Shown here: one piece after another, positions 39,281-61,358 of the stretch
Numbering within the stretch: position 1 is the stretch's first letter
Layout of the letters: each line of letters opens with the position of its first letter
From: Desulfobotulus mexicanus
Lineage (GTDB): Bacteria > Desulfobacterota > Desulfobacteria > Desulfobacterales > ASO4-4
NCBI RefSeq assembly: GCF_006175995.1
Contig: NZ_VDMB01000010.1
Span: forward strand, 62,001 to 126,000
Length of the DNA stretch: 64,000 bases
Reading direction: 5' to 3'
Position numbers and translations under genes: made by a program
Notes under the pieces: model-generated
What the model was told of the DNA's origin: nothing
Seen by the model: only the letters and a program-made list of their open reading frames with translations
The model's database searches: none

Positions 39281-39495
39281 TTCAGTTTCTGAAGTGCAGA
39301 CACCTAAGCACTTTTCCTTTGGGGAGGTGGCTTAGGTTCTTGAAGCGAGGAGCCGGGTGAGAAGGGGCATCTTCCGGGTAAATTTATTTACGGAAGCAGC
39401 CCTAAAAGCAGGCAGCAGATAAAAGATTCAGCTTCTGAGGGAGCCGACCGATATAAGGGAAACATGGGACCATGGATTCCCGAAAGGAGGCGGCC

Positions 39496-40452
39496 ATGCA
39501 TATAGTATCTACATCCCTTCAGATGGCGGGTATTTCCCGTCAGGAAGTACAGACAAGGCGTACCATGCGTATGGTGGTACATGCACCCGTAGAGGAAGAA
39601 AATTCTTCCCAAAGAGGCTTGAAGGGCAGGGGGCTTTTTTTTAAGTCTGCCCCTGTGCCTGAAGCGGGTTTGAAGCATCTGGATCTGGATATGAGTAAAC
39701 GTCTGGTGCAGATGATTTTGAACGCCCTTACCGGGAAAAAACCGGATATTCCCTTTTTCAGGCCTGAACCTGTGGCAGAATTTCCCAGAGACGTCCTTTC
39801 GGGTGGTCCGGGTTCTGCCTTTCATATAGAAGAAACCATTTATACGCGCATGGAACAGGAAAGTATTTTTATGGCCGAAGGTGAAGTGATGACCGCCGAT
39901 GGCCGGAAGATAAGTTTTTCTGTGATGCAGATGCAGTCCCGTAAGGAAGAAAGTTTTGTGGCAAGGCAGGTTAACTTTGTGGACCCTCTGGTTATTTCCC
40001 TGAGCGGGCCTGTTACTATGGGTGATGCCCGTTTCACCTTTGATCTTACCGGAGACGGGAAGGAAGAATCCCTTGCCATGCCTTCTAAGGGGGCAGGATT
40101 TTTATTTCTGGATAAAAACGACAATGGTCGGGTTGATGACGGCAGTGAGCTTTTTGGTACCAGCTCCGGTGATGGCTTTGCCGACCTTGCCGCATACGAC
40201 AGTGATGGTAATGGCTGGATAGATTCCGGAGATCCGGTTTTCTCAAAGCTGCGTATCTGGCATCCGGAAGATGGAACCAATGGCAGGGGAAAATCTCTTA
40301 GTGACATGGGAATAGGTGCCATAGGACTTTTCCGGGTGGCAACACCCATGGATGTGGGTGGAGAAAAGGGTGGACGCATCCAGAGTTCCGGTATTGTTCT
40401 TACTGAAACAGGCCGGGCCGGGACCGTGCATCATCTGGATTTGAAGGTTTAA
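39496..40452 (+). CDS. Protein with EF-hand-like calcium-binding repeats, function unknown
   Basis: A 318-residue protein without a signal peptide. The first 150 residues are polar and variable. The C-terminal half has acidic calcium-loop repeats: FDLTGDGKEE near 181, LDKNDNGRVDDGSELFG near 205-221 and YDSDGNGWIDSGDPVF near 235-250, followed by LRIW and a closing GRAGTVHHLDLKV. This layout matches a widespread proteobacterial family of unknown function that often carries DxDxDG loops and the SELFG motif. The ATG at 39496 has GGAGG seven bases upstream and is preferred over one eight codons earlier. It may be secreted without a classical signal, but nothing here shows that. Confidence 0.75.
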   Translation: MHIVSTSLQMAGISRQEVQTRRTMRMVVHAPVEEENSSQRGLKGRGLFFKSAPVPEAGLKHLDLDMSKRLVQMILNALTGKKPDIPFFRPEPVAEFPRDVLSGGPGSAFHIEETIYTRMEQESIFMAEGEVMTADGRKISFSVMQMQSRKEESFVARQVNFVDPLVISLSGPVTMGDARFTFDLTGDGKEESLAMPSKGAGFLFLDKNDNGRVDDGSELFGTSSGDGFADLAAYDSDGNGWIDSGDPVFSKLRIWHPEDGTNGRGKSLSDMGIGAIGLFRVATPMDVGGEKGGRIQSSGIVLTETGRAGTVHHLDLKV

Positions 40453-40466
40453 GTTGGATTTAACGG

Positions 40467-40808
40467 AATTGTTCAGCACATGTTATTCTGAAAGTTGAAT
40501 GCTCAATTTTATAGGCTCAGCATCACTGCAAGGCCCCCTGGCTATTTGCAAGTGACGTTGCAATCGTTTCGGATCAGAGCTTTGCAGGCCTGTGCGAAAG
40601 AAGCGGCAAACTGTCTGAACCGCCACAAAGGCAGCGTACTTGAGTCTGCCATGGTAACCAAAAGCCTGTTCTGCCTGTGGTGGTGAGTTTTTGCCGCTTC
40701 CGCACAGGTCAAGAAGCTACCGAATAAGATTGCGTCACGGGCAAATAGCTTGGGGGTCTTTGCATTTTTCTGGCAGATATGGAACTTATAAAATTGTGCT
40801 GAACAATT
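40467..40808. repeat. 342-bp inverted-repeat element (MITE-like)
   Basis: The ends are exact inverted repeats, AATTGTTCAGCACA at 40467-40480 and TGTGCTGAACAATT at 40795-40808. Inside, more blocks repeat in inverted order: ATTTTATA near 40506 and TATAAAAT near 40787; GCTATTTGC...GTGACG (40541-40557) against CGTCAC...GCAAATAGC (40734-40749); CCTGTGCG...GAAGCGGCAAA (40589-40610) against TTTGCCGCTTCCGCACAGG (40690-40708). The whole would fold into one long imperfect hairpin centred near 40637. No ORF lies inside and no clear target-site duplication was seen. Confidence 0.75.
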
Positions 40809-40849
40809 AATATTTTATCCGTATCTGATGTTTTTTTCCGTCACAGGTC

Positions 40850-41509
40850 TCAGGCATAGACATTTTCGTGTCTGAAGGTGAATTCAGGATGCTGTTTTTG
40901 TGCCTGATGAACAAGGGCCTGTAGAGGGTCAGAGTTCTGGCGCAGGTTGTTGTATTCCCGACTGATAACGGAAAGGGAGCGTTCTTCTCCGGCATCGAAA
41001 AAAGCGCTGAATTGCTGCCTGGCTTCCTGTTTTCCTGTCTGTCCCAGAGAGTTAAGGCCCTGATGCATGCCAAGGGAGGCCAGGGTTGCTTTGAAATCCT
41101 TGTCTTCCTGAAGCCCTTTTTCAAGCTCCCATGAACCTTTTACTCCTGAGTTTACACGGATATCTCCTTTGGCCGTAAGGCGGACCATTACTTCGGCATC
41201 TTCAGGGATTCCTGCTTTCTGGCGGGCCTGGGCAATCTGCTGGTGAACGGTTTCTTCTATGGCTTTGCGGCTGTTTTCCATGATTTCTTTGGTTATTTTA
41301 CCACGGATGGGCAGGCCAAGGCTCTCCCTGAGCTTTGCTGCTTCGACTTCAGGTGAAAGTGTCACCCGATCCATACGCCTGTCTGTGCCTGCGGATTCCT
41401 TTGTTTTGTCTGAAGCTGCTGCAGGAGCAAGCCCCTGAACCCTGCGGTCCTCACTGCGTTCTGTCAGTGGATGATCATTTTTCTGATAGGCTTGAATTCC
41501 TGAGATCAT
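40850..41509 (-). CDS. Hypothetical protein, 219 residues
   Basis: A soluble, charged protein without signal or membrane helix. It is not recognised. The N-terminal 45 residues are low complexity, then DRVTLSPEVEAAKLRESLG, a pattern also seen in small secreted or flagellar-type proteins. A helical stretch (about 68-105) with AGIPEDAEVMVRLTAKGDIRV follows, and the C-terminus (SREYNNLRQNSDPL) is helical and polar. AGGGGAG in front of the ATG supports the start, and codon use resembles the neighbours. It is convergent with the EF-hand-like gene, with the inverted-repeat element between them. Confidence 0.65.
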   Translation of the reverse strand: MISGIQAYQKNDHPLTERSEDRRVQGLAPAAASDKTKESAGTDRRMDRVTLSPEVEAAKLRESLGLPIRGKITKEIMENSRKAIEETVHQQIAQARQKAGIPEDAEVMVRLTAKGDIRVNSGVKGSWELEKGLQEDKDFKATLASLGMHQGLNSLGQTGKQEARQQFSAFFDAGEERSLSVISREYNNLRQNSDPLQALVHQAQKQHPEFTFRHENVYA

Positions 41510-45028: not shown

Positions 45029-45107
<79 letters not shown>

Positions 45108-60349: not shown

Positions 60350-60664
60350 TTGGATACCATCGTAACAATACATATGTTTGGCGAGGTGTACAAGTTTAAG
60401 GCGGAGGCAGGCGTTGCCGATGCGAAAGAGGTTGCCGATTTTTTGATGGAAGAGCTTGGGCGGGTTGAAAAGGATCTCGGCCCTCAAGCAAAAACCGTTA
60501 CCAAAACAGCAAAGCTTCTGCTGGCTACCATGAATATTGCCAATTCGTATTATAATCTTAAACGGCAGCATATGGAAACGGTGTCAGAATTGACGCAAAG
60601 ATCGGATGCCTTGCTAATGGCCTTGGAGGCGGTTCCAGATACTCCTCCTTCTATAAAAGAATAA
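60350..60664 (+). CDS. zapA: Cell division protein ZapA
   Basis: A 104-residue FtsZ-bundling protein. The N-terminal beta strand pattern TIVTIHMFGEVYKFK at residues 3-17 and the following helix with KEVADFLMEELGRVEKDLG match ZapA, then a coiled coil with LLLATMNIANSYYNLKRQ. The start is probably a TTG at 60350; an in-frame TGA lies two codons before it. The 6S RNA gene follows directly. Confidence 0.85.
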   Translation: MDTIVTIHMFGEVYKFKAEAGVADAKEVADFLMEELGRVEKDLGPQAKTVTKTAKLLLATMNIANSYYNLKRQHMETVSELTQRSDALLMALEAVPDTPPSIKE

Positions 60665-60841
60665 AACCCCTGCAGTGTTTGTGATTGATATGCCCTTTGA
60701 CCCAATGTTTTATAAAAGGGAGCTTTCTCTGGTACTGGTGTGCATGTTCTGATTCTTATCAGAAAAGCCTTAAGGTATCACAAGGCGCCCACTTGAACCT
60801 ATCGGTTCAAAGGTTTTTCCAACACGGCACATGCGGGGGTA
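60665..60841 (+). ncRNA. ssrS: 6S RNA
   Basis: A segment of about 177 nt directly after zapA. The conserved 3' half of 6S RNA is readable: CAGAAAAGCCTTAAGG (60759 onward) and ACTTGAACCTATCGGTTCAA with AGG after it, closely like the E. coli sequence. The ends pair: CCCCTGCAGTGTT (60667-60679) with AACAC...ATGCGGGG (60820-60838). The long hairpin with a central bubble mimics an open promoter and binds sigma-70 RNA polymerase in stationary phase. The zapA-6S order is conserved in many proteobacteria. Ends are approximate. Confidence 0.85.
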
Positions 60842-61358
60842 TGCTTGATATGTCATCCCCACCATCCTTTCTCTTCTCTCCCTCCTTTTTTTCTTCTGCT
60901 TTGCATTTTTATGAAATGCAGATTCTGTTTTATTATCTGTTTTTGCAGGTTTTTTTTGATTTTATTATCCGTATGCAGCGGCTTTTTTTGATTTGTTAAT
61001 TACTGTAAATAAATGACAGCACGCACCTTGCATACTCATAATCAAATGCCCAAGGATCAAAGAACAGTATTTTTATACCTGTGCAACGGAGGGGTCTGCA
61101 CCAGTCCTCCGGACAGTTTCTGATCGAAATGTTTTTTTGGCTTAGGTCATGCCTTTTTGATCGGTGTCAGGCTTGTATTTTAATGCTCAAAACACTTTGG
61201 TGTATGTATGTGTTTAAAATCCTCGCCTCCCATGGATGGCAAAAATGGTTTTCGCTCAGTTGGTGTGGGCATCACGGGATGGATAAAAATGCTTTCTCTG
61301 CGAGCTTGGGGTACGGTCGTTGTGGGGGATGCGGTGTGTTGAATGGGGAGATCGGGGA
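60842..61358. other. Intergenic region between 6S RNA and rny
   Basis: About 517 bp without a credible gene. It has very T-rich stretches (60880-60995), a perfect TGCATTT/AAATGCA stem at 60902-60920, and a GC stem CGGAGG/CCTCCG at 61087-61112 followed by a T-run. The region should contain the rny promoter, but none stands out. Confidence 0.4.

Follow-up and report, generated by a model that had tools for sequence, protein, structure and literature searches.

Prokaryotic MITEs, as treated in the parts of a review covered here (PMC10969869), are intergenic, high-copy sequences that form a stem-loop and occur in size variants, and the examples Chunjie (Geobacter), Correia/NEMIS, QMITEs and ERIC are short, with inverted ends and duplications. 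The element described here is like them in each of these respects, and differs in having an interior that is better conserved than its subterminal arms. IS66 does not occur in the main text of the same review. Among IS66 elements, ISDge4 (ISBst12 group) of Deinococcus geothermalis has been observed transposing. Its one transposase gene encodes 449 aa, its ends are GTGACTACTCAGCA and GTAACTGCTCAGCA, and its direct repeat, CCTCGATG, is 8 bases long, according to the portion of PMC12898284 covered. A duplication value of 8 is also tabulated beside IS66 members in the portion covered of PMC3281130. A partial survey of the literature on IS66 and MITEs, and on Desulfobotulus, gave no IS66-linked MITE, and none appeared in the portions covered of PMC3281130, PMC10969869, PMC3189936, PMC12888890, PMC9769881 and PMC12898284. 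As far as those portions go, IS66 and a MITE are found together in PMC12888890, where the repeat generated by the MITE is 4 bp long and no IS66 type is claimed for it, and PMC9769881 names IS66 only as one resident IS.

The family described below is a dense bacterial MITE family tied to the IS66 transposase family through its ends and target duplications. As a kind of element it is ordinary, if abundant, and it is the conserved core that is of interest: an interior conserved between drifting arms, with a motif that is also found in unrelated repeats, raises the question of whether a MITE can persist through a structured RNA that it carries.

The element in the window

The window, ie the whole 64-kb stretch of DNA that was analysed, contains one copy of the element. 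Three Desulfobotulus genomes are compared: the one from which the window comes (G000), a sister species (G001) and a third species (G002). A preliminary description had reported a 342-bp palindrome at 40467-40808, with exact inverted ends and inner inverted blocks that could fold into one long hairpin. The palindrome is real (fold z = -9.6). As single-stranded DNA it folds at -82.7 kcal/mol, against a mean of -46.5 (sd 3.8) after shuffling, and 0 of 100 shuffles folded as well. The 14-nt ends, 40467-40480 and 40795-40808, are 100% complementary, and from these perfect arms the single hairpin is continued by two further inverted pairs inside, of 28 nt at 82% and 18 nt at 83%. Only the boundaries had to be changed, each being placed two bases further out by comparison of copies (Table 1). 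The family has GT...AC at its termini and the window copy GG...AA.

No ORF of at least 80 aa, the minimum length listed, lies inside 40467-40808, as first described, and the element is therefore classed as an IS66-type MITE and not as an IS66 insertion sequence. The neighbouring ORFs, at 39472-40452 (+) and 40850-41509 (-), are convergent, again as described, and neither has a Pfam match at E 0.001. The protein of the upstream neighbour is 93% identical in D. alkaliphilus, the sole relative found in that scan. Rfam has no family at the element at the gathering score, and at E up to 10 there were two snoRNA matches far below their thresholds. Elsewhere in the window Rfam places a 6S RNA at 60664-60843 and a tRNA at 45034-45107.

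Table 1. Positions of the element and its parts in the window.
Feature	Position	Strand	Detail	Basis
Whole element	40465..40810	+ (as aligned to family)	346 bp	Alignment of 61 copies; end comparison
Left terminal inverted repeat	40465..40480	+	Family GTAAYTRTTCAGCACA; window copy GGAATTGTTCAGCACA	
Right terminal inverted repeat	40795..40810	-	Window copy, - strand: TTAATTGTTCAGCACA	
Left 8-bp target duplication	40457..40464		Decayed, 5/8 matching	End comparison; sister's empty site
Right 8-bp target duplication	40811..40818		Decayed	End comparison; sister's empty site
Conserved inner hairpin core	40530..40760	+		Inverted pairs; 61-copy alignment; covariation
Segment without counterpart in short forms	40575..40727	+	Two 190-191 bp forms, C1 sample (first 400 kb); one junction	
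Apical motif, 5' half	40605..40618	+	GGCAAACTGTYTGA	
Apical motif, 3' half	40685..40695	+	GAGTTTTTGCC	

Copy number, insertion and IS66-type ends

With the element as query, at least 40 copies were found in its own genome at E <1e-89 (all 40 scored among 165 first-look candidates), together with 12 additional weak matches to one arm on the opposite strand. The family end pattern GTAAYTRTTCAGCAC, allowing up to two mismatches, occurs 228 times in G000, 465 times in G001 and 56 times in G002, and the reversed control pattern 10, 8 and 3 times, respectively. Halving the end counts gives about 110 copies in G000 and about 230 in G001. Copies or fragments number 24 in the first 400 kb of G000 contig C1, where they make up 7.8 kb (1.9%), and 25 in 260 kb of G001 contig C3 (7.6 kb, 2.9%). 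Extrapolation from these samples gives approximately 230 copies for G000 and 385 for G001, totals which are rough because both contigs were picked knowing that some copies were present. The copies in the own genome probably number a couple of hundred and are scattered. Copy number was the first check proposed in the preliminary description, and the element proves to be high copy, not single copy.

Among 40 genomes, including the own, matches were found in the three Desulfobotulus genomes only. A search with a typical copy in 291 genomes of the order, in which two candidates were scored for each genome, gave matches at E ≤0.001 in six: the three Desulfobotulus, G079, and two with matches of 25 and 35 bp near E 5e-4. 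At one mismatch, the end pattern is clearly above its control in the three Desulfobotulus genomes, G079, G096, G191 and five genomes of genus g94 (G119, G146, G168, G184 and G200). Many others of the 291 have few matches to the end pattern, similar to their own controls. A typical copy gave no match in plasmid and phage collections.

Pairing of the ends in the loci analysed gave 87 pairs, of which 86 are element-like, a number in which some copies count more than once because their ends can be paired in alternative ways. Of the 86, 24 have an exact direct repeat of 8 bp on either side (0.27 expected when flanks are swapped between copies), and 48 match at 7-8 of the 8 positions (1.28 expected). 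No exact 9-bp flanking repeat was found among the 86 pairs. The duplications are A+T rich (304 of 384 bases). Target-site duplication had also been left to be checked; the family duplicates 8 bp, with only 5 of 8 positions still matching at the window copy.

Several sites occupied in one species are cleanly empty in another. In the clean comparisons (G1C3:165634, G2C3:14368 and G1C3:183409-183603) the flanks overlap by 8, 8 and 7 bp, and a single target copy is therefore present there. The remaining unshared sites show larger gaps or partial flank matches. At the locus of the window copy, the sister species has 11 bp between matching anchors, compared to 11 + 346 + 8 in the window, and the third species likewise lacks the copy, in a more diverged sequence. 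A conserved position, which had been named as evidence against a MITE, is thus not what is seen at this locus.

In the sampled contigs, 53 copies are 170 bp or longer; they lie between co-directional (33), convergent (13) and divergent (7) genes, where 30.2, 8.4 and 14.4 would be expected from spacer length. That copies are never inside a gene holds partly by construction, because the ORF calls were crude and the elements were masked by stops. With an unmasked ORF call, 23 of the 53 lie inside called ORFs, mostly short and largely within the element.

Full-length IS66 elements with ends one or two mismatches from the MITE end pattern, at each end, were found in two other families of the order. 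One, of 1757 bp (G062:C5:55095-56851), has ends GTAACTATTCAGCAA, with AAAACGCC duplicated on either side, and an open frame of 495 codons that matches PF03050 (1.4e-45). The other, of 1759 bp (G191:C168, 2097 to 3855), has ends GTAATTATTCAGCAA and GTAACTATTCAGCCA and is flanked on both sides by TATAATTT. A further IS66 gene in G191 (PF03050, 2.3e-44), truncated by the contig start, has an end that is exactly GTAATTATTCAGCAC. The two full-length elements and ISDge4 resemble the MITE in end type and 8-bp duplication, the ends in G062 and G191 reading GTAAYTATTCAGC.A, and the MITE ends fit the ISBst12-group type GTAACT..TCAGCA. The MITE differs in its length of about 350 bp, in having no transposase ORF, and in its interior, for which no similarity to the interiors of the three was shown. 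The assemblies of G000 and G002 contain no match to PF03050, and the 25-bp ends around the G001 IS66 gene are different in sequence (GTAACTTCTCAATAAG...). In G079, G146, G184 and G200 the ends are enriched without a PF03050 match.

A transposase with matching ends, as had been proposed for checking, is present in related genomes, in IS66 elements with near-identical ends and 8-bp duplications. No IS66 gene was found in the own assembly, and the mobilising enzyme is therefore one that we infer. The early MITE reading is supported by the high copy number, the 8-bp duplications, the empty loci and the IS66 ends in relatives, and the family has the characters of a MITE: it is short, has no transposase gene, and shows common inverted ends, a fixed 8-bp duplication and insertion polymorphism. 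We consider it very probable that it is a non-autonomous Desulfobotulus MITE, which an IS66-family (ISBst12-like) transposase would move in trans. Such a transposase, encoded by one gene, would act on the GTAAYTRTTCAGCAC ends by recognising them, and insertion into A+T-rich intergenic DNA would duplicate 8 bp. The enzyme itself may have been lost, may lie in unassembled DNA, or may be active only sporadically.

A separate candidate for the parent transposase, in a 1450-bp end-to-end span at G000 C1:136195-137644, was rejected, because the span proved to be one copy of the element split by a different transposon. The ORF of the latter, on our own reading, looks like the IS630/DDE_3 type.

The conserved inner hairpin

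In 61 full-length copies the mean pairwise identity is 0.67-0.80 in columns 1-80, 0.86-0.96 in columns 81-300 and 0.75-0.77 beyond. Of the cells at 67 stem pairs (52 core, 15 terminal), 95.9% are paired. In 43 cells, 8 of them in the terminal repeats, both sides are changed, compared to a shuffled mean of 21.9, and the covariation score is 0.095 compared to 0.081; in both cases 0 of 500 shuffles were as high. The number of stem pairs with a both-side change (11) and the number of further pair types (52) are unexceptional, being reached by 29 and 91 of 500 shuffles, respectively. When the partners were shifted by 1-3 columns, 34-43% of cells were paired, 9-20 were changed on both sides, and the score was 0.019-0.040; pairs changed on both sides still numbered 4-11. 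Core conservation and covariation, together with recurrence of the core in G079 (below), suggest a structured module selected during spread. The inner hairpin is retained in the line of elements that spread, through either selection or templated repair, and could serve as a folded RNA, or as a DNA hairpin required for mobility.

In a hairpin kept as DNA, G.T and A.C mismatches would be expected to be equally common. The asymmetry is strongest at pairs chosen by RNAalifold, a program that itself favours G.U, with 77 G.U and 20 A.C events (p 4.6e-9). Strand-symmetric pairs, taken over the whole element outside the ends, gave 137 G.U and 96 A.C (p 0.009), with 18 and 21 among pair types seen once. 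For core pairs, variants found in at least two copies comprised 17 G.U and 4 A.C (p 0.007), and those seen once 13 and 16. A hold-out set of 46 copies was taken, 7 of which were dropped for low core coverage or identity; the 39 counted gave 19 G.U and 9 A.C in at least two copies (p 0.09), with singles 12 and 22. Removal of two hold-outs that contained first-set copies left 37, with 18 and 9, and singles 12 and 21. In the pooled 98 copies the counts were 30 and 17 in at least two copies, and 19 and 5 in at least four (p 0.007). The terminal repeats show no asymmetry (32 G.U, 36 A.C), and in unpaired columns it is reversed (198, 245). The G.U excess on the + strand among common variants is suggestive only.

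If the core does act as RNA, it might have been domesticated by the host as a regulatory or terminator RNA and be selected at each locus. The better conservation of the core than of the arms, the covariation and the lean of common variants towards G.U in the + strand would all be in keeping with this, as would one of the two shared sites compared, a pair in inverted orientation with 12 differences in 231 core positions and 18 in 117 arm positions (Fisher p 0.002). That contrast favours constraint on the core, or may come from poor alignment of the flipped arms, and the other site (G0C15:18525 / G1C3:139476) shows none, with 10/229 in the core and 6/118 in the arms (Fisher p 0.79). Private changes are only slightly rarer in the core (0.20-0.65 per column in columns 81-300, 0.35-0.85 outside) and have no G.U bias. 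The evidence for selection on the core at resident copies is weak and mixed. Moreover, the 33 copies between co-directional genes have the same orientation as their neighbours in 16 cases and the opposite in 17, many positions are unshared between species, and terminators are not preferred: insertion into terminator T-tracts was considered and had no support, such tracts being present at 4 of 48 insertion sites and at 41 of 960 control positions. We regard domestication at each locus as very unlikely.

A MITE whose fold is selected on one strand during multiplication, more than at resident sites, would instead be a vehicle for a structured RNA, and its apical motif, CAAAC-TGTYTGA-GC..GC-GA-GTTTTTG, with a putative kink-turn-like shape, would be an older module present in unrelated intergenic repeats across the phylum. 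This extension of the IS66-type MITE reading is offered tentatively, and we think it rather doubtful.

Changes in place and recurrence of the apical motif

In the C1 sample, two short forms of 190-191 bp lack positions 109-261 of the query, with a single common junction, and three long forms of 411-479 bp contain an additional nested hairpin. In the long forms (G000:C1:308546-309024, 324447-324861 and 330809-331219) a nested palindrome CCGGCACTCAAGC...GCTTGAGTGCCGG was seen, which in the first form is present in both arms. There are seven sites at which two species both have a copy. At six of them the orientations are comparable, being the same at four and inverted at two (scores of 541 against 81, and of 352 against 62); the copies at the seventh have eroded too far (21 against 18). 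At G0C15:14401 / G1C3:135336 the odd right terminus AATCAC is found in both species and the interior is flipped, and this therefore looks like one insertion whose interior was inverted through the arms. At G0C15:34827 / G1C3:155926 the same flanks enclose 179 bp in one species and 472 bp in the other, apparently through loss of about 290 bp from the interior in one of them.

A second repeat (AAGTTACTTTATGACAAAACGCCG..CACGGCGTGGGTTGCTG, with variants) abuts some copies, on the left at loci L004, L046 and L049, on the right at L029, and also at G000:C1:136140-136200; at L004 the target duplication lies outside it. Copies are also found at the start of contig G000:C11 (L028) and the end of G000:C16 (L005), with flanks that match across contigs. 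The right flank of L028 is that of L033, likely an assembly or recombination junction at the repeat.

Related elements occur in G079, from another family of the same order. L203 is 223 bp long and has exact duplications AAAATAAA. Its ends, with 3 and 2 mismatches, are a weak fit to the pattern, and its core is shared by L190 and by L189, which is cut by the contig start. Blocks common to G079 and Desulfobotulus are GTGACAT, TTCGGATNAGAG (L189 and L190), the apical AAACTGTCTGAGGCC...GGCCGAGTTTT and CAAGAAGCTCCCGAA, and in the best match between them 82% of 71 bp are identical (E 9e-13).

Among 345 genomes of the phylum, 5 contain the pattern CAAACTGTYTGAGC-N2-12-GYGAGTTTTTG, with 23 occurrences in all, and the reversed control has 0; Desulfobotulus scores 0, its loop being longer than the pattern allows. 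A 16-base half motif, at one mismatch, is found 83 times in G000 and up to 5 times in each of 18 other genomes of the 345. Short intergenic hairpin repeats of the form CAAACTGTYTGAGC..GYGAGTTTTTG were seen in G332, G367, G360, G552 and G574 (L179-L184), several with a GCAGCCGAG-like stretch upstream and a AGCCGAAGGCC-like one downstream.

Such recurrence of the apical motif in other families, in the form of short hairpin repeats, could point to an intergenic repeat of REP/REPIN or ERIC type that a Y1 (RAYT) transposase has spread, and not to a DDE transposon. REP/REPIN sequences are palindromic intergenic repeats with an internal bulged hairpin, which the element, a long, intergenic, high-copy palindrome, resembles, and G000 has 5 Y1_Tnp matches. 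Flanks of about 1.5 kb, or reaching to the contig end, at 8 Y1_Tnp loci from three genomes contained no full copy of the motif or element; L068 had a fragment of 8 bases and L070 a marginal match of 17 bp (E 0.07). Nor was a Y1 transposase recognised by eye among the open frames that adjoin six sites of the short repeats. The element differs in its target duplication and DDE-type ends, and 8-bp duplications and 15-bp ends are not known to be features of REP spread. The target duplications weaken this explanation, and we hold it to be extremely improbable.

Apart from the IS66-type MITE itself, elements of about 250 bp with ends like GTAACTATTCAGCTC were seen in another genus of the order, at G168:C1:829362-829617 (L167) and, in similar form, at L168 and L170; their interior is unrelated and they have CCTCCGGCGG arms. 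Six matches to GTATCTGTTCAGCAC at 54-bp spacing, apparently a tandem array, were seen at G115:C1:8027448-8027732.
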